Below, one piece after another: positions 21,557 to 30,360 of a stretch of DNA of 41,257 bases. Origin of the DNA: Comamonadaceae bacterium (GTDB lineage: Bacteria > Pseudomonadota > Gammaproteobacteria > Burkholderiales > Burkholderiaceae_C); assembly GCA_013297985.1 (NCBI GenBank), contig JAAFIY010000024.1:1-41257 (forward strand). Direction: 5' to 3'. Under the pieces are notes generated by a model that worked only from the letters and a program-made list of their open reading frames with translations, did not search any database and was not told the DNA's origin. Every line of letters begins with the position of its first letter. Positions within the stretch are counted from its first letter, which is position 1. A program made the position numbers and the translations under genes.

Positions 21557-21612
21557 TGAAGTAGCTTCGTAGCTTTTTGGAAGCCCCGGGCGACGATTTC
21601 GAGGGGATCGCG

Positions 21613-22692
21613 TTGATTGACATTGGTTCGCTTTTCGGACGCAAGCAGGCTGCGCTGGTCGGCGTAGACATCAGCTCGTCGAGCATCAAGCTCGTGGAGT
21701 TGTCGCGCGACAAAGCGGGCCGCTTTGTGGTCGAAAGGTGTGCGCTTGAGCCGCTTGAGCGTGACTGGATCACCGACGGCAACATCGAAAAATTCGATGA
21801 AGTCGCCGAAGCCCTGCGTCGCGTGGTCAAAAAAAGCGGCGCCCGCACCAAAAACGTGGCCATGGCCTTGCCTGCGTCTGCGGTGATCACTAAGCGCATC
21901 GTCTTGCCCGGCGGTATGTCAGAGCAAGAGCTAGAAGTGCAAGTGGAGTCTGAGGCCAATCAGTACATCCCGTTTTCGCTGGATGAGGTCAGTCTCGACT
22001 TTTGCGTCATTGGCCCCAGCGTTACGTCTCAGGGCGACGTCGACGTACTGATTGCGGCTTCGCGCAAGGAAAAAGTGCAGGATCGTCAAGGCCTTGCCGA
22101 AGCTGCGGGGCTCAAACCGGTGGTCATTGACGTGGAGTCCTATGCGTCGCGTTTGGCGGCCGGGCGGCTGATCGAAGGCTTGCCCGAGCAGGGCAAAAAC
22201 GCTCTGGTCGCACTGTTTGAGGTGGGCTCTGTCAACACCAGCATGCAGGTGATTCGCAATGGCGAATCCATCTACGACCGAGATCAGGCCTTTGGCGGCG
22301 CACAACTCACGCAGCTGATCATGCGGCAGTACGGCTTTTCTCAAGACGAGGCCGAGCAGAAAAAACGCAGCGGCGATTTGCCAGACGACTACCCCAACCA
22401 AGTGCTCAAGCCGTTTGTGGACAGCACCGCGCAGGAAGTGGCCCGGGCGCTGCAGTTCTTCTTTACCAGCACCCCCCACAACCGGGTGGACCAGATCATG
22501 TTGGCCGGCGGTGGCGCTTCGATGCCGGGGCTAGTAGAGGCCATCATGGAGCAGTCCAGCGCTCCTGCGACCATCGTCAACCCTTTTGAGGGCATGGAAA
22601 CGGGGTCTGGCGTTCGCTTGAACAAAATGACGCGAGAGGCGCCGTCGTACCTGACCGCGTGCGGGCTGGCCATGCGGAGGTTCGCGCAATGA
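21613..22692 (+). CDS. pilM: Type IV pilus assembly protein PilM
   Basis: PilM is an actin-like cytoplasmic ATPase-fold protein that binds the N-terminus of PilN and links the pilus motor to the inner-membrane alignment complex. The 359-aa product has phosphate-1-type VGVDISSSSIKLVELS near the start, a second nucleotide motif around ALFEVGSVNTSMQVI, and an adenosine-type MLAGGGASMPGLVEAI. The start is assigned to TTG at 21613 because GAGGGG lies 6 bases upstream; a TTG at 21577 has no such site. It overlaps pilN by 4 bases (ATGA) and is first in pilMNOPQ. Confidence 0.95.
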   Translation: MIDIGSLFGRKQAALVGVDISSSSIKLVELSRDKAGRFVVERCALEPLERDWITDGNIEKFDEVAEALRRVVKKSGARTKNVAMALPASAVITKRIVLPGGMSEQELEVQVESEANQYIPFSLDEVSLDFCVIGPSVTSQGDVDVLIAASRKEKVQDRQGLAEAAGLKPVVIDVESYASRLAAGRLIEGLPEQGKNALVALFEVGSVNTSMQVIRNGESIYDRDQAFGGAQLTQLIMRQYGFSQDEAEQKKRSGDLPDDYPNQVLKPFVDSTAQEVARALQFFFTSTPHNRVDQIMLAGGGASMPGLVEAIMEQSSAPATIVNPFEGMETGSGVRLNKMTREAPSYLTACGLAMRRFAQ

Positions 22693-23342
22693 TTCGCATC
22701 AACCTGCTGCCGCACCGCGAAGAGGCCCGTAAGCGCCGTAAGGAGGCATTCGGGGCTTCCATGGTGGCTGCCGTGCTGGTGGGTGCCGCCATCGGCGGGC
22801 TGATTTTCTTGTATTTCCAGGGGCGGATCAGTGCGCAACAAGAGCGCAATGAGTTTTTGCGTAGCGAGATCAAGAAACTTGAACGCCAGATTGCTGAAAT
22901 TGCGAATATTGAAACCGAGATCGCACGCCTGCGCGCGCGGCAAAAGGCAGTAGAGGATTTGCAATCGGATCGAAATCTGCCCGTCCACCTACTCAACGAG
23001 GTCGTCAAGCAATTGCCGGACGGTCTTTATATTTCGAGTTTGAAACAGCAAGGCCAAGAGATTTCGATACAAGGCGTTGCCCAATCCAATGAGCGAGTGT
23101 CAGAACTGCTGCGCAACCTCGCTGACAACACCCCTTGGTTGTCTAGGCCGTCATTGGTCGAAATCGTTGCTGGCAACCTGAACTTGTCAGCTCGTGATCA
23201 GCGCCGGGTTTCCAACTTCAATGTGGGATTCCGCTTGGCGCGCACCGCAGAAGCTGAAAAGGCGATGAGTCCAGCGGCCCCTCCGGCCGCCGGAGCGGCT
23301 GCATCTGCGTCGGGTGCTACTGCGGCGGGGAAAGCGCCATGA
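22689..23342 (+). CDS. pilN: Type IV pilus assembly protein PilN
   Basis: PilN is a bitopic inner-membrane protein of the alignment complex. The 217-aa product begins MIRINLLPHREEARKRRK; INLLP is the PilM-binding motif. One membrane helix follows (about residues 24-45, MVAAVLVGAAIGGLIFLYF). After that come a coiled coil (QERNEFLRSEIKKLERQIAE) and a periplasmic ferredoxin-like domain. The C-terminus is an Ala-rich tail (PAAPPAAGAAASASG) longer than I expect for the family. It pairs with PilO. Confidence 0.95.
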   Translation: MIRINLLPHREEARKRRKEAFGASMVAAVLVGAAIGGLIFLYFQGRISAQQERNEFLRSEIKKLERQIAEIANIETEIARLRARQKAVEDLQSDRNLPVHLLNEVVKQLPDGLYISSLKQQGQEISIQGVAQSNERVSELLRNLADNTPWLSRPSLVEIVAGNLNLSARDQRRVSNFNVGFRLARTAEAEKAMSPAAPPAAGAAASASGATAAGKAP

Positions 23343-23384: not shown

Positions 23385-24083
23385 ATGGCCACCAAGCGCA
23401 GCATTCCCTCTATCGACTTCAAGGCGCTGTCGCAGCGCGTGGGTTCGCAGTTCCGCAATCTGGATCCGCGTGATCCGTCACTGTGGCCTGTATTTCCGCG
23501 CTCGGCGCTGCTTGTTGCTGTCACAGTTCTGGTAGCCGTGGGACTTTGGTTCGGTTGGTTAAAGGGCTTTCAGGAATCTCTTGAGGCTGAAGAGGCCACC
23601 GAGGTTTCGTTAAAGGAAGACTATCGGCGCAAGCTGGTCAAGGCCGTCAATCTGGATCAGCTCAAGCAGCAGCGTGAGCAGATTCAGCAGTATGTGATCC
23701 AGTTGGAAAAACAGCTGCCCAGTCGTGCCGAAATGGCTGCGCTGCTCTCAGATGTCAACCAAGCCGGCCTGGGTCGCAGCCTTCAGTTTGAAGTGTTCCG
23801 ACCGGGACAAGTGGTGGTGCGTCAGTACTACGCCGAATTGCCCATTGCGGTGCGGGTGACGGGCCGCTATCACGACATTGGGGCGTTTGCCTCCGACATC
23901 GCTCATCTCTCACGCATCGTGACCTTGAACAACGTGGTTGTGACGGCTGCGGGCGCACCTGCTGCCGCTGCGGCCAGAGTCAATGATGTACTCACCATGG
24001 ACGCCACGATTCGCACTTTTCGCTACCTAGATGCGGAAGAGGTGGCAGCGCAAGAAAAAGCGACCGGAGGGGCCAAGAAATGA
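23385..24083 (+). CDS. pilO: Type IV pilus assembly protein PilO
   Basis: PilO forms heterodimers with PilN and holds PilP in the periplasm. The 232-aa product has a short basic cytoplasmic start, a membrane helix at about residues 43-60 (SALLVAVTVLVAVGLWFGW), a coiled coil (LDQLKQQREQIQQYVIQLEK) and a C-terminal periplasmic domain with PIAVRVTGRYHDIGAFASDI. It follows pilN after 42 bases and overlaps pilP by ATGA. Confidence 0.95.
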   Translation: MATKRSIPSIDFKALSQRVGSQFRNLDPRDPSLWPVFPRSALLVAVTVLVAVGLWFGWLKGFQESLEAEEATEVSLKEDYRRKLVKAVNLDQLKQQREQIQQYVIQLEKQLPSRAEMAALLSDVNQAGLGRSLQFEVFRPGQVVVRQYYAELPIAVRVTGRYHDIGAFASDIAHLSRIVTLNNVVVTAAGAPAAAAARVNDVLTMDATIRTFRYLDAEEVAAQEKATGGAKK

Positions 24084-24625
24084 GGGCCTCGCTAGTTCGC
24101 GGTGCGGTGGCTTGTGCTTGCCTTTGGCTTGTTGGTTGCACGCAGTCAAGCATCGATGAGTTGACGCGTTGGATGGCCGAACAACGTGCGGAAGTCAAGC
24201 CGCGGGTTGAGCCCTTGTCACCGCCCAAGCAGTTTGTGCCCCAGGAGTACACCCAGTCGGCATCAGTAGAGCCGTTTAACCTGCAGAAACTGACGCAGGT
24301 GCTCAAAAGCGAAGCGTCGCAACCGTCTGCAAGCGCGGCCTTGATTGGCCCTGAGATGGCGCGTCGAAAAGAACCTCTGGAGGCTTATCCATTGGACTCC
24401 GTTGCCATGGTGGGCAGCCTGCTACAGCAGGGGCGGCCCGTGGCGCTGGTGCGCATTGACAACCTGATCCATCAGGTTCGCCCTGGCAACTATGTGGGGC
24501 AGAACTTTGGGCGCATCCTGCGCATTTCTGAAACCCAAATTGAATTGCGTGAGATCGTCCAAGACGCCACCGGCGAATGGGTTGAACGTTTAGCAACCTT
24601 GCAGTTGCAGGAGAAGAGCAGATGA
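24080..24625 (+). CDS. pilP: Type IV pilus lipoprotein PilP
   Basis: PilP is an inner-membrane lipoprotein that connects PilN/PilO to the PilQ secretin. The 181-aa precursor has lipobox LVGC with lipidated Cys20. A disordered stretch follows (residues ~30-90), then the beta-sandwich HR-like domain with ALVRIDNLIHQVRPGNYVGQ and GRILRISETQIELREIV. It starts within the pilO stop and overlaps pilQ by 4 bases. Confidence 0.95.
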   Translation: MRASLVRGAVACACLWLVGCTQSSIDELTRWMAEQRAEVKPRVEPLSPPKQFVPQEYTQSASVEPFNLQKLTQVLKSEASQPSASAALIGPEMARRKEPLEAYPLDSVAMVGSLLQQGRPVALVRIDNLIHQVRPGNYVGQNFGRILRISETQIELREIVQDATGEWVERLATLQLQEKSR

Positions 24626-26784
24626 AGAACCCGGTCGGCTATGGCTTGCGGTGGCTCCGGTCTATTGCGCTCGCCCTTGGGAGTGTGTGGTTTGCATCTG
24701 CGGCTTGGGCCCAGATGTCGATCGAGTCCATCAGTGCTTCGGTGCAAGGCGGCACCGAGGTGATTCGCATTGATTTGAGTGGCCCCATTGCGTCTGTGCC
24801 GTCCGGGTTCACCATCCAAAGCCCCGCCCGCATTGCGCTGGATTTTCCGGGTGTAGTCAATGGCATGGGCCGCAGCACCGTCGAAGTGAACCAAGGCAAC
24901 TTGCGCTCAGCTACTGTGGTGCAAGCCGGTGAGCGTACTCGGGTGGTGCTCAATCTAAAGCAGGCCACCACCTACAAGTCAGAAATCAAGGGCCGTACGC
25001 TCTTGGTGTCGCTCGATGGCGTCGCCGCTGCGGCGGCGCCGGTGGCCACCAGCACGGCGGGCAACACGCTTTTCGCGGAAAGCCGCAACAACACGGCGCT
25101 GCCGTTGCGCGACATTGACTTTCGCCGAGGCAGTGACAACTCCGGCCGCATCGTTGTGGATTTGCGCAGCAACCAGGTGGGTGTTGACATTCGGCAGCAA
25201 GGCTCGGCCCTGGTGGTGGAGTTCTTGAAATCTACTTTGCCCCAAGGCTTGCGTCGGCGACTCGACGTCACTGACTTTGGCACGCCCGTGCAAATGATCA
25301 CCACCACCGAAGTGGGCGAGCGTGTGCGCATGACCATCGACGCCCGGGGTTCGTGGACCCATTCGGCGTATCAGAACGACAACCAATTGGTGGTTGAAGT
25401 ACGTGAGCTGAAGGTCGATCCCACCAAGCTCACCCAGGGCCCCAATTTCACTGGCGAAAAGCTGTCGCTTAACTTCCAGAGCATTGACGTGCGCTCGCTG
25501 CTGCAGGTGATCGCTGACTTCACCAACTTCAACGTGGTGACTTCAGACACGGTGACCGGCTCGCTCACCTTGCGCTTGAAGGATGTGCCCTGGGACCAGG
25601 CGCTGCAAATCATTTTGGACGCCAAAGGACTTGGCTTGCAGAAGAACGGGTCGGTGTTGTGGATTGCGCCAAAAGAAGAAATTGACGCCCGCACCAAGCG
25701 CGACTTTGAAGCAAGCCGCGCCATCGAAGATCTTGAGCCCGTGCGGACACAGGCATTTCAGCTGAACTACGCGCGAGCGACGGATATCGCTGCCCAGCTG
25801 GTTGCTACCGGAACCGGAGCAGGTGGGGCAGGTGGCGCACGGTTTCTTTCGCCCCGTGGTACTGCCATTCCGGAGCCTCGAACCAACCAACTGTTTGTGA
25901 CCGACATCAGTTCGCGCTTGGCCCAGGTGCAGGAGTTGCTGAGTCGCTTGGATGTCGCTGTGCGTCAAGTGCTGATCGAAGCCCGCATCGTTGAGGCGTC
26001 GGACACATTTGGTAAATCCCTAGGCGTGCGTTTGGGTGGTACGGACCAGCGTGCATTGCGAGGTGGTGAAGGTGGGTACGGCATCGGCGGTGGCAACCGA
26101 GTGGCGATTGGAAGTTCTTACAACAACTTAACCGGCACAACTGGAGCGAATACCTCTGTGTCGGATGCGGCCATGAACACCGCTAGCAACTTCGTCAACC
26201 TGCCCACTGCAGGTGCCGGCGGCTTCGAAGCAGCGCGCTTTGCGCTTTCAATCTTTAGCCCGTCAGCGAACCGTTTCTTGAACCTAGAGATATCCGCGCT
26301 AGAGGCGGACGGCAAAGGCAAGGTTGTTTCTAGCCCGCGTGTGGTGACAGCCGACCAGACCAAAGCTCTAATCGAGCAAGGTACCGAGCTGCCCTATCAG
26401 GTAGCCACCGCCAGCGGTGCAACGTCCATCGCCTTTCGCAAAGCGAATTTGAAATTGGAAGTGACCCCTCAGATCACTCCAGAGGGCAACATCATCCTTG
26501 AATTGGATGTGAACAAAGACAGCGTCGGCCAGGCCACGGCTGCGGGCTTTGCCATCAACACCAAGCACATCAAAACGCAAGTGCTTGTTGAGAACGGCGG
26601 CACAGTGGTGATCGGCGGTATCTTTGAGCTTCAAGAGCAGGAGAACGAAGCCAAAGTGCCGCTCTTGGGCGATCTGCCTGGGGTCGGAAACCTCTTCAAG
26701 CGGCGTGATCGCACCACTAACAAACAAGAGTTGTTGGTGTTCATCACGCCCAAAGTCATTAGCGATCGCGCGGGTCTACGTTAG
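24622..26784 (+). CDS. pilQ: Type IV pilus secretin PilQ
   Basis: PilQ forms the outer-membrane channel through which the pilus passes. The 720-aa precursor has a Sec signal (cleavage near AWA-QM) and AMIN domains in the first ~260 residues. A secretin/TonB short N-terminal domain follows (LSLNFQSIDVRSLLQVIADF), then an N1-type domain (about 370-450). The C-terminal secretin barrel carries VVSSPRVVTADQTKALIEQG and GGIFELQEQENEAKVPLLGD and ends with LLVFITPKV. A Gly/Asn/Thr-rich insert (about residues 475-530) lies inside the secretin region. It is followed by an unusual lipoprotein gene rather than directly by aroK. Confidence 0.96.
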   Translation: MKNPVGYGLRWLRSIALALGSVWFASAAWAQMSIESISASVQGGTEVIRIDLSGPIASVPSGFTIQSPARIALDFPGVVNGMGRSTVEVNQGNLRSATVVQAGERTRVVLNLKQATTYKSEIKGRTLLVSLDGVAAAAAPVATSTAGNTLFAESRNNTALPLRDIDFRRGSDNSGRIVVDLRSNQVGVDIRQQGSALVVEFLKSTLPQGLRRRLDVTDFGTPVQMITTTEVGERVRMTIDARGSWTHSAYQNDNQLVVEVRELKVDPTKLTQGPNFTGEKLSLNFQSIDVRSLLQVIADFTNFNVVTSDTVTGSLTLRLKDVPWDQALQIILDAKGLGLQKNGSVLWIAPKEEIDARTKRDFEASRAIEDLEPVRTQAFQLNYARATDIAAQLVATGTGAGGAGGARFLSPRGTAIPEPRTNQLFVTDISSRLAQVQELLSRLDVAVRQVLIEARIVEASDTFGKSLGVRLGGTDQRALRGGEGGYGIGGGNRVAIGSSYNNLTGTTGANTSVSDAAMNTASNFVNLPTAGAGGFEAARFALSIFSPSANRFLNLEISALEADGKGKVVSSPRVVTADQTKALIEQGTELPYQVATASGATSIAFRKANLKLEVTPQITPEGNIILELDVNKDSVGQATAAGFAINTKHIKTQVLVENGGTVVIGGIFELQEQENEAKVPLLGDLPGVGNLFKRRDRTTNKQELLVFITPKVISDRAGLR

Positions 26785-26833
26785 ACCGCGAGGGTTTACG
26801 TTTCTTTCTTTGTCCAAGCCGAGCCACGCCTTT

Positions 26834-28447
26834 ATGAAACGAATCATCCAACTGTTTTGGCTTTCCCTGGTCGCCTTGGCGCTTAGCGCATGCGGCGGCG
26901 GTGGCGGCGGTAGCGGCACCGTGGCGGGACCGAATCCGACCGTGCAACTCACTGTATCCGTGCCGCAAGACGGTGGCGTGATCGTGCCGCTTGGCGGCAC
27001 AAGCGATACCTACACGATTTCCGGCGGGCGCCAGCCCTACACCGCTTCTTCAGCGGATCCACGTGTGGCGGTGCCGGTCATCAATGGGGATCGCCTGTCG
27101 GTGGGGGGTGTCGCCCTGGGTACGGTGCGCATCATTGTGCGAGACGCCTTCGGCTCATTCGTTGAGTTCAGCGCGGTGGTGGGCCCAATTACACCGCTGT
27201 CCACGACGGCCGCGTCTGCCATCACGCTGATCGAGAACTCCACTGCGATTTACTCCATTCGCGGTGGTGTTGGCCCTTACACCGCAACGAGCAGTGCCCC
27301 TGGTGTGGCGACGGTATCGACATTGAGCAATGCGCTTTCGGTACGCGCTGTGGCTCGAGGCTCTGCGACGGTGGTGGTGACCGATGCGCGTGGCTCAACC
27401 GTGTTGATCGGCGTGACAGTAGAAGGCACGGGCCCGGCCAACCTCTTCACCACGGCGCCAGACACAGTTAACGTGGTTGAGGGCACTACCACTTCGTTCG
27501 GCATTTCGGGTGGGCGTGCTCCGTACACGGCCGTGAGCGACACGGCCGCATTTGTGATGACCTCCGTTAACGGCAACGCCTTCAGCGTGGTGGCTGTCCG
27601 TGCCGGAACTGCCCGTGTGGTGATACGCGATGCGCTTGGCGCGTCGGTGTCTGTCACGGTAACTGTGACCTCTACCACCGCGGCGCCTGGCAACCTGTTC
27701 ACCACGGCCCCCGCCGCGTTGACGATGGTGGCCAACACCCAGCAGAACTTCACCATTTCGGGGGGGCGAACGCCCTACACGGCCAACAGTAGCGCAGTCG
27801 CTGTAGCTACGGCGCAAGTGACTGGGAGCTCGCTGACTATTTCGGCTCGTTCGGCTGGCACGGCATCCATTGTGGTGGTCGACGCTGCCGGCGCAACGGT
27901 CACGATCAGTGTCAGCGTCACCGCCACTCCGGCGCCCGTGGCTATCCCGCTTGCAGTGGCACCTAGCGCAGCGACTGGGGTGGTCAATGACCAGCTCGTT
28001 TTCCGGGTGGATGGTGGCACCGCGCCCTACCAGATATCCACCAACAACCCGGCCATCGCGATCGTGACTCTGAATGGAGCCACGGTGAATGCGGCGCTTC
28101 GTCAAGTTGGGAATACGGTAGTCACGATTTCTGATGCCTTGGGCGCCAGGGTGACTTTGACATTGACAGTGACTGCCGACACGCTTGCTTTCCGTGTGTC
28201 GCCGAATGCGCTGACTTTAGATATCGACACTGGCGGAAACCTCACGTTCCTAGCCTTTGGTGGTACTGGCAGCTACTCAGTGTTCAGCAGCAATTTGGAT
28301 TTGATTCGGGCCTTTGTCGTTGGCAATACGGTGACCGCTGCGGTACAGGCGCGGCCAGCAGGATTCACAGCTACCACAGTTGTTACATTGACTTTGGTTG
28401 ACTCTGCGGGAGCGATTGCCACGACCCTGGTGACTGTCACGCCGTAG
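26834..28447 (+). CDS. Lipoprotein with six Ig-like repeats, inserted in the pil-aro operon
   Basis: This 537-aa protein is not one I recognise. A lipoprotein signal ends in LALSAC with lipidated Cys20, then a run of six Gly. Six repeats of 80-84 residues follow, each marked by GG-x-x-PYT or a variant (residues 64, 144, 226, 310, 394, 476), an 'xVxGxxLxV' strand and an ending like VxVxDAxG followed by a Val/Thr-rich strand. This pattern is that of bacterial Ig-like/cadherin-like beta-sandwich domains found in surface proteins. It has almost no Cys, Trp or Lys after the signal. The gene lies 49 bases after pilQ and 79 before aroK, on the same strand, so it is probably co-transcribed. A pilus- or secretin-associated surface role is inferred. 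No ribosome-binding site is visible before the ATG. Confidence 0.75.
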   Translation: MKRIIQLFWLSLVALALSACGGGGGGSGTVAGPNPTVQLTVSVPQDGGVIVPLGGTSDTYTISGGRQPYTASSADPRVAVPVINGDRLSVGGVALGTVRIIVRDAFGSFVEFSAVVGPITPLSTTAASAITLIENSTAIYSIRGGVGPYTATSSAPGVATVSTLSNALSVRAVARGSATVVVTDARGSTVLIGVTVEGTGPANLFTTAPDTVNVVEGTTTSFGISGGRAPYTAVSDTAAFVMTSVNGNAFSVVAVRAGTARVVIRDALGASVSVTVTVTSTTAAPGNLFTTAPAALTMVANTQQNFTISGGRTPYTANSSAVAVATAQVTGSSLTISARSAGTASIVVVDAAGATVTISVSVTATPAPVAIPLAVAPSAATGVVNDQLVFRVDGGTAPYQISTNNPAIAIVTLNGATVNAALRQVGNTVVTISDALGARVTLTLTVTADTLAFRVSPNALTLDIDTGGNLTFLAFGGTGSYSVFSSNLDLIRAFVVGNTVTAAVQARPAGFTATTVVTLTLVDSAGAIATTLVTVTP

Positions 28448-28526
28448 AGGCGATGCGTGCGGCTGAATGACAGCGCTGGTCTTGGCCGAAGATGAGGGCC
28501 GGGCAAGTAAGCGGGTGTAGCTCGTT

Positions 28527-29078
28527 TTGATCTCCCTCATCGGCATGCCCGGTTGCGGCAAATCCACGGTGGGCCGCCAAATGGCGCGCCGACTGGGTTT
28601 GCCGTTTGTGGACGCTGATGTCGCACTGGAAACTCGCTTGGGCTGTGCGATCAGCGACTTTTTTCCGCTGCATGGCGAAGCCGCCTTTCGAGACCACGAA
28701 GAGGCCTCTCTGCGCGAATTGGCAGCTAGCCATGATGGCGTTTTGGCCACGGGCGGCGGCGTGGTGCTTCGTGAGGCCAATCGGCACATGTTGCGGCAGG
28801 CTGGCCCGGTGGTGTATCTGCGCGCCTCGCCTGAAGAGCTGATCGTTCGCCTGCGCAACGATCGAGTGCGTCCACTTTTGCAGGTCCCCGATCCGATGGC
28901 CCGCTTGCGCGAGCTCTATGAAGTGCGCCACCCTCTGTATGCCGCTACAGCCCATATCTGCGTTTCGCAAGGCAAAGGGTCTGTCAGCGTGATGGTGCGC
29001 GAAGTCATTGCCGCACTTGAGTCCTTGGGTGCGTTGCACGGCGTGCCGACTGCGGTGCCGATCAGCGGCAAAGCCTGA
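28527..29078 (+). CDS. aroK: Shikimate kinase
   Basis: AroK phosphorylates shikimate in aromatic amino acid synthesis. The 183-aa product has Walker A GMPGCGKST at residues 6-14, DADVALETRLG, the shikimate-binding FRDHEEASLREL, ATGGGVVLREANR (substrate-binding GGG) and the lid/adenine region RNDRVRPLLQ. The start is TTG at 28527: an in-frame TAG lies at 28518, the kinase fold begins immediately, and no ATG is available. It sits between the inserted lipoprotein and aroB. Confidence 0.94.
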   Translation: MISLIGMPGCGKSTVGRQMARRLGLPFVDADVALETRLGCAISDFFPLHGEAAFRDHEEASLRELAASHDGVLATGGGVVLREANRHMLRQAGPVVYLRASPEELIVRLRNDRVRPLLQVPDPMARLRELYEVRHPLYAATAHICVSQGKGSVSVMVREVIAALESLGALHGVPTAVPISGKA

Positions 29079-29163
29079 GGAGTACGTCTCTCGGTCCTAC
29101 CGAAAGTGCGCCTCTGGGTAAGTCCAGCCGGTGTGCCAACTCCACGCCCCTACACTGACGCCC

Positions 29164-30360
29164 ATGCAAGACCTAGACATGGCGATCACGCGCTCTGCTG
29201 CACCCGTCGGCGTGCGCCACACCTCCCTGGAGCGTGTAGCCGATGCTGTTCAAACAGTGTCCATAGATCTGGGTGAGCGCTCCTACCCCATCTTGATCGG
29301 CTCTCATTTGCTGGCTGAACCAACGGCTTGGGCTGGGTTGCCGAAAAGCGCGCAGACTTTTGTCATCACCAACGCCACAGTGGCCGCCCACCACGGCGAA
29401 TTGGTACAGCAGGCCTTGCAGGCCCAGGGTCACCGTGTGTCAGTGGTGCACTTACCCGACGGCGAGCAGTTCAAGGACTGGAACAGCCTCAATCAGATTT
29501 TTGACGCCTTGCTAAGCGCCGGGGCAGACCGTCACACCTTGCTGGTGGCCTTGGGCGGCGGTGTCGTGGGGGACATGACGGGTTTTGCCGCTGCCTGCTA
29601 CATGCGCGGCGTGCCCTTTGTGCAGGTGCCCACCACCTTGCTGGCCCAGGTCGACTCGTCAGTGGGTGGCAAAACCGCCATCAACCACCCGCTGGGCAAA
29701 AACATGATTGGCGCCTTCTACCAACCGCTTCGGGTGCTGTGCGACCTCAGCACCTTGGCAACGCTGCCCGCACGCGAGATCAGCGCTGGCCTGGCTGAGG
29801 TCATCAAGTACGGGCCCATTGCCGACATGGCGCTGCTCGATTGGCTGGATGGACACATCGCAGACCTGCGGGCACTGGCGCCTGATGCACTGGCCCATGC
29901 CGTGGCTCGCAGTTGCCAAATCAAGGCCCAGGTGGTGGGGGCGGACGAAAGGGAAGGCGGCCTGCGCGCCATTCTCAATTTTGGCCATACCTTTGGCCAC
30001 GCCATGGAAGCGGGGTTGGGTTACGGGCAATGGCTGCATGGCGAAGCCGTAGGTGCGGGCATGGTGATGGCCGCTGAGCTGTCATGCCGCTTGGGTGGCG
30101 TCGATCGGGCTTTTGTGCAGCGACTCACACGCATCGTGGCGGCTGCTGGCCTACCCGTGCAAGGCCCTGTCTTGGATGCGGCTGACAACGCGGGGCGCTA
30201 CCTGCAATTGATGCGCCTCGACAAAAAATCGGTGGGTGGCGACATCCGCTTTGTGCTGTTGGCGCGGCCTGGACTTGCGCGCGTGCAAAGCGCGCCAGAC
30301 GCCTTGGTGCGTGCGGTGATTGATCACTGCTGCAGCGCAGCCGTACGCGTGCCGTTTTGA
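29164..30360 (+). CDS. aroB: 3-dehydroquinate synthase
   Basis: AroB cyclises DAHP to 3-dehydroquinate, the second step of the shikimate pathway, using NAD and a metal. The product is 398 aa from the ATG at 29164; an ATG at 29179 and a GTG at 29131 are alternatives. Conserved parts are [31 protein letters not shown] (NAD site), [21 protein letters not shown] and the metal ligands in [18 protein letters not shown] and [11 protein letters not shown]. The first ~35 residues are poorly conserved, so the exact start is uncertain. A repeat copy follows the stop codon at once. Confidence 0.95.

Follow-up and report, generated by a model that had tools for sequence, protein, structure and literature searches.

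An Ig-repeat lipoprotein gene between pilQ and aroK and the pil-linked slot that it occupies

Is the lipoprotein gene that lies between the secretin gene pilQ and aroK in a Comamonadaceae bacterium an oddity that interrupts the operon, as the initial annotation of this locus had it, or a regular member of the pil neighbourhood, and what could its product do there? The pilMNOPQ genes are among the best-studied bacterial gene sets, yet most of the sampled genera of this family add an Ig-rod lipoprotein gene at their end. We analysed a window of 41,257 nucleotides (the whole stretch of DNA under study, contig JAAFIY010000024.1 of assembly GCA_013297985.1), whose source genome is around 90 percent complete, together with other genomes of its GTDB family and order. 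The fold of the repeats is ordinary; the slot and the swapping of domain classes in it are undescribed as far as we searched. No description of this gene turned up in searches of open-access full texts. The main text of the Ramlibacter genome paper, as far as available (PMC3164672), names type IV pili and leaves pilQ unmentioned, and the accessible part of a review on type IV pili in plant pathogens (PMC3927602) mentions neither aroK nor a lipoprotein. Surface lipoproteins are reviewed in PMC7857515.

The gene, its surroundings and its repeats

The coordinates of all the features are collected in Table 1. The lipoprotein gene keeps an intact frame from its ATG to its stop and encodes 537 amino acids. 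Its signal peptide (K/R residues and then a hydrophobic stretch, read from the translation by eye) ends at a lipobox, L-S-A-C20, which satisfies the pattern [LVI][ASTVI][GAS]C as LSA-C20. The predicted lipidated Cys is followed by a Gly/Ser-rich tether, and six Ig-like repeats of 80-87 residues each come after it. The initial annotation had described a 537-aa, six-repeat lipoprotein on the same strand as its neighbours in the pilQ-aroK interval, which the lipobox and the six profile domains confirmed. Its remark about short gaps without a terminator also held: the gaps measure 49 and 79 nt, and simple scans detected neither a terminator-like nor a promoter-like site in them. Two terminator-like sites were found in 26400-29200, both within the lipoprotein gene, and these are fewer than in shuffled sequences. 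Regarding the composition, the lipoprotein gene (GC 0.613, GC3 0.671) is close to pilQ (0.583 and 0.682) and aroB (0.627 and 0.717), and therefore a recent arrival of foreign DNA was rejected on this measure.

Table 1. Features of the window from the pil operon to the aro genes
Feature	Positions	Strand	Basis or remark
pilM	21577..22692	+	position; collinear homologues upstream of pilN in pil operons of other genomes
pilN	22659..23342	+	Pfam PilN on 22686-23342, E 2.6e-23
pilO	23385..24083	+	Pfam PilO, E 2.4e-46
pilP	24080..24625	+	Pfam PilP, E 1.5e-47
pilQ, secretin	24622..26784	+	Pfam Secretin, E 3e-48; AMIN, E 6.8e-38
49-nt gap, pilQ stop to lipoprotein ATG	26785..26833	+	without terminator-like or sigma-70-like site
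Ig-rod lipoprotein gene	26834..28447	+	ORF, lipobox, repeat profile
Lipoprotein signal peptide (predicted)	26834..26890	+	residues 1-19; C20 codon 26891-26893
Gly/Ser-rich tether	26894..26932	+	residues 21-33
Ig repeat 1 (GGRQPYT)	26933..27187	+	repeat profile
Ig repeat 2 (GGVGPYT)	27188..27442	+	repeat profile
Ig repeat 3 (GGRAPYT)	27443..27694	+	repeat profile
Ig repeat 4 (GGRTPYT)	27695..27943	+	repeat profile; modelled, mean pLDDT 89.1
Ig repeat 5 (GGTAPYQ)	27944..28183	+	repeat profile
Ig repeat 6 (GGTGSYS), most divergent	28184..28444	+	repeat profile
aroK, TTG start	28527..29078	+	79 nt past lipoprotein stop; Pfam SKI, E 4.9e-47
aroB	29131..30360	+	homology to collinear genes

The repeat profile, to which the window protein itself contributed together with the repeats of three relatives, recognised six domains in the window protein with E values from 1e-20 to 3e-28. 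Residues G23, G24, Y28, G55, D63, G66 and V75 (numbering of repeat 4) are invariant across all six. They had been announced as GG-x-x-PYT repeats of about 82 residues; the number and the approximate length stood, whereas the literal motif occurs in repeats 1-4 only and becomes PYQ in repeat 5 and SYS in repeat 6. In the DNA, direct repeats have a period of 240-252 nt, the same as that of the protein repeats, for four copies.

We modelled repeat 4 (83 aa) with AlphaFold2, using the other five window repeats as the alignment, and obtained an Ig-like model with seven strands and a pTM of 0.73; the whole protein modelled poorly (mean pLDDT 40.4), and that model was left unused. Judged from repeat 4, the repeats are predicted to have the Ig beta-sandwich fold. 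The description of the product as an Ig-like lipoprotein was thus upheld by the lipobox and this fold. Foldseek placed gpV, the tail tube protein of lambda, first among the solved structures, by its Ig domain (E 9e-5, TM 0.77). By VIA-align the Z scores were 13.4 for a tail surface protein of phage SU10, 11.8 for lambda gpV, 11.6 for a nuclear pore Ig domain, 11.5 for the S-layer protein SbsC, 11.3 for a Big_2-CBM56 protein, 10.3 for a LigA segment (rmsd 2.2, 78 aligned) and 9.0 for intimin. Among PDB sequences the repeat profile matched intimin at E 6e-4 and, more strongly (E 6.6e-7), a protein of phage N4. The fold is thus a common one, and a match in fold shows no function.

Big_2 and similar Ig-like domains are the nearest domain kind. 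Pfam Big_2 (PF02368) gave no match to the window protein, and the relative L042, from G222, reached E 4e-4 and 20.7 bits, under the cut-off of 22.8. The only Pfam matches of the window protein over the cut-off were BiPBP_C and Carmo_coat_C, both weak sums over the repeats, and we rejected them: BiPBP_C passes as a whole-protein sum while no single stretch passes even E 1, and Carmo_coat_C, passing in the same manner, is a plant-virus coat family.

The slot between pilQ and aroK

PilQ was located in 96 of the 100 genomes of the window's GTDB family, one per genus. Setting aside the window's own genome and two with pilQ cut by a contig end (G264 and G287), we read 5 kb after pilQ, or less at contig ends, in 93 genomes. 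Lipoproteins were called on the pilQ strand by a lipobox and hydrophobicity rule, short out-of-frame ORFs being dropped; the Gly filter lost one case (L043, with CSGGGG) that was restored by hand, giving 57+1 = 58. Thus, 58 of the 93 regions carry a lipoprotein with a Gly-rich anchor immediately after pilQ, read in the pilQ direction. There were 32 regions with aroK within 200 nt of pilQ, hence without a lipoprotein at that site, and three (L071, L103, L111) that were undetermined or had a gap without lipoprotein. A lipoprotein at the same site in most of the sampled genera rules out the idea of an oddity that interrupts the operon.

Among the 57 automatically called cases, the slot lipoprotein starts at a median of 39 nt past the pilQ stop (range 16-161). 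In 56 of them the Cys is followed by three G/S residues, a figure not independent of the Gly filter used to pick them, and in an alignment of 60 slot proteins C20 is the sole invariant column. With aroK starts extrapolated from alignments, ten of the 57 appear to share 1 or 4 nt with aroK. In G347 (L174) the aroK frame stays open for only 59 codons, counted from where the match begins, compared with around 170 in other genomes; it is either broken or affected by a sequencing error.

Genus g136 is without PilQ, and in G226 and G431 (L188 and L190) there is no Gly-rich lipoprotein above aroK. As a comparison for pilus loss this is weak, since the remaining genomes were searched by tblastn only and the genus may never have had the gene. 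The ORFs above aroK in G226 and G431 resemble, by eye, another prepilin-type cluster.

Outside the family we took one genome from each of 40 further families of the order and located aroK after pilQ in 37 of these genomes. In 35 of these regions aroK follows at 41-302 nt, and the other two (G056 of f8 and G058 of f10) have a lipoprotein in between. The initial annotation had called the direct pilQ-aroK order the usual one, which is right for the order at large and wrong for the window's own family. Adjacency is therefore the common state, and the slot would be a gain of the window's family and a few others, although this count alone cannot separate gain from loss.

The occupants of the slot are not of one kind. 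We scanned with Pfam a set of 60 proteins (the window protein, the 58 first lipoproteins and one second lipoprotein), of which 46 matched Big_1 and 8 matched He_PIG. With the first 30 residues cut off, phmmer at E 1e-4 gave groups of 46, 9 and 3 plus two singletons, the group of 3 being the window protein and those of G222 and G247. Lengths range from 110 to 1194 aa, and proteins of the GG-x-x-PY class have 1-11 recognised repeats. Occupants differ even within genera: in g192 a He_PIG protein (G282) stands where G519 has GG-x-x-PY; in g131 the slot is empty in G221 and holds GG-x-x-PY in G428, G497 and G557; and in g168 a Big_1-class protein is alone in G258, while in G511 and G569 (L161 and L164) the pilQ-aroK interval holds a tandem pair of Ig lipoproteins, of which the second is of GG-x-x-PY class. 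"Lipoprotein cassette" therefore describes the slot better than "one orthologous gene". On an AroB tree made by a quick method, with 39 of its 83 inner branches open, the slot labels change 28 times against 40.3 when shuffled, which shows only that the labels cluster and change often. Two lipoproteins in a row after pilQ were also seen in G210 (L047).

Selection, and linkage of the GG-x-x-PY class to pil genes

We calculated dN/dS by NG86 for pairs of relatives within genera. The values for the lipoprotein were 0.23 (G222/G347) and 0.16, 0.13 and 0.16 (among G428, G497 and G557), and 0.12 for the Big_1 pair G258/G569, beside 0.14-0.18 for aroB; the lipoprotein dS of 1.4-1.65 is near saturation, and therefore these values are rough. 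They show purifying selection on the lipoprotein within these genera. With an intact frame and values of this size in the four within-genus pairs and the Big_1 pair, a decaying gene was ruled out, and no diversifying selection was seen at the whole-gene level within genera. Against the window protein itself dN/dS was 0.49 and 0.63, near saturation and unreliable. Across genera the lipoprotein diverges far more quickly than its neighbours: between the window and G222 the identity is 31 percent for the lipoprotein, 50 for aroK, 68 for aroB and 77 for the last 60 residues of PilQ.

Regarding linkage, we searched the 399 genomes of the family with a class profile made of ten repeats (from the window, G247 and G222), all from pilQ-adjacent proteins and thus biased towards such proteins. 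At E 1e-6 it matched 21 genomes, and in 16 of them the repeats come right after pilQ (G000, G222, G247, G333, G347, G368, G409, G428, G477, G497, G511, G519, G536, G557, G569 and G583), which supports the membership of the gene in the pil neighbourhood. Below 1e-10 there were 17 genomes, all at pilQ except G405. The other five have repeats away from pilQ. In G405 a 1042-aa ORF (L162:8293-11421) joins the slot anchor ACGGGGGSAGT to the repeats away from pil genes, and no lipoprotein was found when we looked after its pilQ. G328 has, besides its repeats elsewhere, another CGGGGG lipoprotein after pilQ; G358 also belongs here; and G476 and G315 (L238 and L239) have, besides distant repeats, a short GG-x-APYY lipoprotein directly after pilQ. 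These short lipoproteins, of 146 and 132 aa, are similar to L076 and were not detected there by the repeat profile.

Of 300 genomes of the order that we searched with the repeat profile, 18 matched, the window's own included. A plain protein search of 200 genomes from the order matched 5, again with the window's own among them, and a contig scan gave one confirmed relative, in a Saprospiraceae MAG, at 28 percent. In 8 of the 17 matched genomes outside the family the repeats are close to the pil operon. In G602 and G631, of f8 (2 of 3 f8 genomes matched), they occupy the pilQ-aroK interval and share its strand. G038, G083, G125, G198, G621 and G679, of f39 (L270-L275; 6 of 6 matched f39 genomes), have GG-x-x-PY lipoproteins on the opposite strand past the end of pilMNOPQ, 0.7 to 1.9 kb from the pilQ end; these six represent two genera and maybe one or two events. 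The opposite-strand layout means that co-transcription alone does not explain the linkage. There was no pil gene in the stretch read in the other nine (G022, G088 and G099 with 1.5 kb flanks; G113, G122, G595, G642, G660 and G671 with wider ones, bounded by contig ends in G113 and G122). The initial annotation had wondered whether the gene would turn up equally often away from pil loci: in the family it does not, and outside it the linkage is weaker. The position with pil genes is conserved across lineages, and the window gene is intact and belongs to a pil-linked lipoprotein slot. In G671 and G642 (f23; L278 and L279) two repeat-bearing ORFs adjoin each other, with no pil gene in 19 kb.

Possible function of the lipoprotein

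Leptospiral Lig lipoproteins are lipid-anchored and carry Big_2-type Ig domains in tandem, an architecture common to the window protein, and we noted above the alignment of repeat 4 with LigA. However, they belong to a different phylum, and the window protein lies in a type IV pilus operon and has six repeats with the GG-x-x-PY motif. The likeness to Lig that we observed is one of fold, for a single repeat. Lig proteins are the subject of PMC7821625 and PMC3012076. The intimin/invasin proteins are comparable through the Big_1 matches of most slot proteins and through the Ig domains of intimin, which match the window repeat in fold and sequence. In contrast to them, the window protein is probably lipid-anchored instead of held by an outer-membrane beta-barrel, and Pfam found in it no Big_1, barrel or LysM domain, its N-terminus being a lipoprotein signal.

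The reading that we prefer, with a probability of around 45%, is an outer-membrane Ig rod, probably displayed at the surface, that is produced alongside type IV pili and would serve as an adhesin or tether. An occupant of the slot at the end of pilMNOPQ, with a body of six Big_2-like Ig domains, would be synthesised from the pil transcript, lipidated at Cys20 and then transported to the outer membrane; a Gly at +2 does not signal retention in the inner membrane. The flexible Gly-rich tether would carry the rod, which may be displayed at the surface as a stalk of variable length. The weakest step is binding: wherever the cell uses its pili, the stalk might attach to surfaces, to matrix or to neighbouring cells. 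A search of the genome for a Slam-family exporter gave no match, and its controls were equally silent. The variable repeat number, the lipid anchor and the Gly tether together favour a surface-displayed rod. Against this reading stand the lack of any sign of diversifying selection at the whole-gene level (such selection might be expected in an adhesin that meets hosts or phages), the 32 genera that do without a lipoprotein at this site, and the repeats away from pilQ in 9 of the 17 genomes outside the family and 5 of the 21 within it.

The same position could instead reflect a lipoprotein that touches, at the outer membrane, the secretin or the emerging pilus (in stability, gating or as an exit-port collar) and thus a lineage-specific component of the type IV pilus. 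We consider this doubtful, although it comes foremost among the rivals. It agrees with the adjacency to pilQ in 58 of 93 genera, with the neighbourhood kept in the different layout of f39 and with tandem lipoproteins of different classes in G511 and G569. Nevertheless, 1-11 repeats, a length that varies between 110 and 1194 aa and Ig classes with no relation to each other are a poor fit to a part of fixed geometry, whereas a surface stalk may vary, and pilQ is intact without a slot lipoprotein in 32 genera. Neither is there a pilotin vacancy. The pilotins (PilF/PilW/Tgl) are outer-membrane lipoproteins tied to pil genes, as the window protein probably is too; however, they are TPR proteins, and the TIGR02521 pilotin profile was absent from the window protein in an NCBIfam scan with E up to 10. 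A PilW/PilF match was found in 96 of 100 family genomes, in the window's own on another contig (C106:71940-72650, E 1.5e-58), and therefore the lipoprotein is not needed as a stand-in pilotin and we discarded this role. Ranked next, and unlikely in our view, is a general tandem-Ig envelope or surface lipoprotein that came to lie after pilQ and is kept there for its level of expression, its role having nothing to do with pili. The repeat proteins away from pil genes speak for such a passenger, and so does G405, with no lipoprotein found after pilQ and the anchored 1042-aa protein elsewhere; the recurrence of the linkage in f39, where the pil transcript cannot be shared, speaks against it. The surface rod is thus placed ahead of both.

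Less probable again is a wider scheme, in which Ig-rod lipoproteins, interchangeable with one another, would make up a ring in the outer membrane at or close to the exit port of PilQ and act as a clade-wide accessory of the type IVa pilus. Their class (Big_1, He_PIG, GG-x-x-PY) and length, from one to many domains, would set what the pilus exit touches, and families would keep them by the pil operon in different layouts. We regard as very improbable a function in defence or exclusion, with the Ig rod standing where the pilus leaves the cell and either blocking phages that depend on pili or competing for retraction of the pilus: the turnover of classes at one site within g131, g192 and g168 would suit it, whereas diversifying selection was not seen at the gene level. 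If the protein acts with pili, a large group of environmental bacteria would have one more surface or exit-port component in their type IV pili, and the gene would offer a handle on the factors behind adhesion, DNA uptake or phage access. Should it be a passenger only, the slot still gives a clear example from nature in which unrelated Ig classes take each other's place at a fixed site.

Regarding the C-terminal part of the slot proteins, mostly those of Big_1 class, the alignment (A1) has the majority consensus CxNEDxNxNGxxDxGEDxN, a stretch that looks like a calcium-binding loop.
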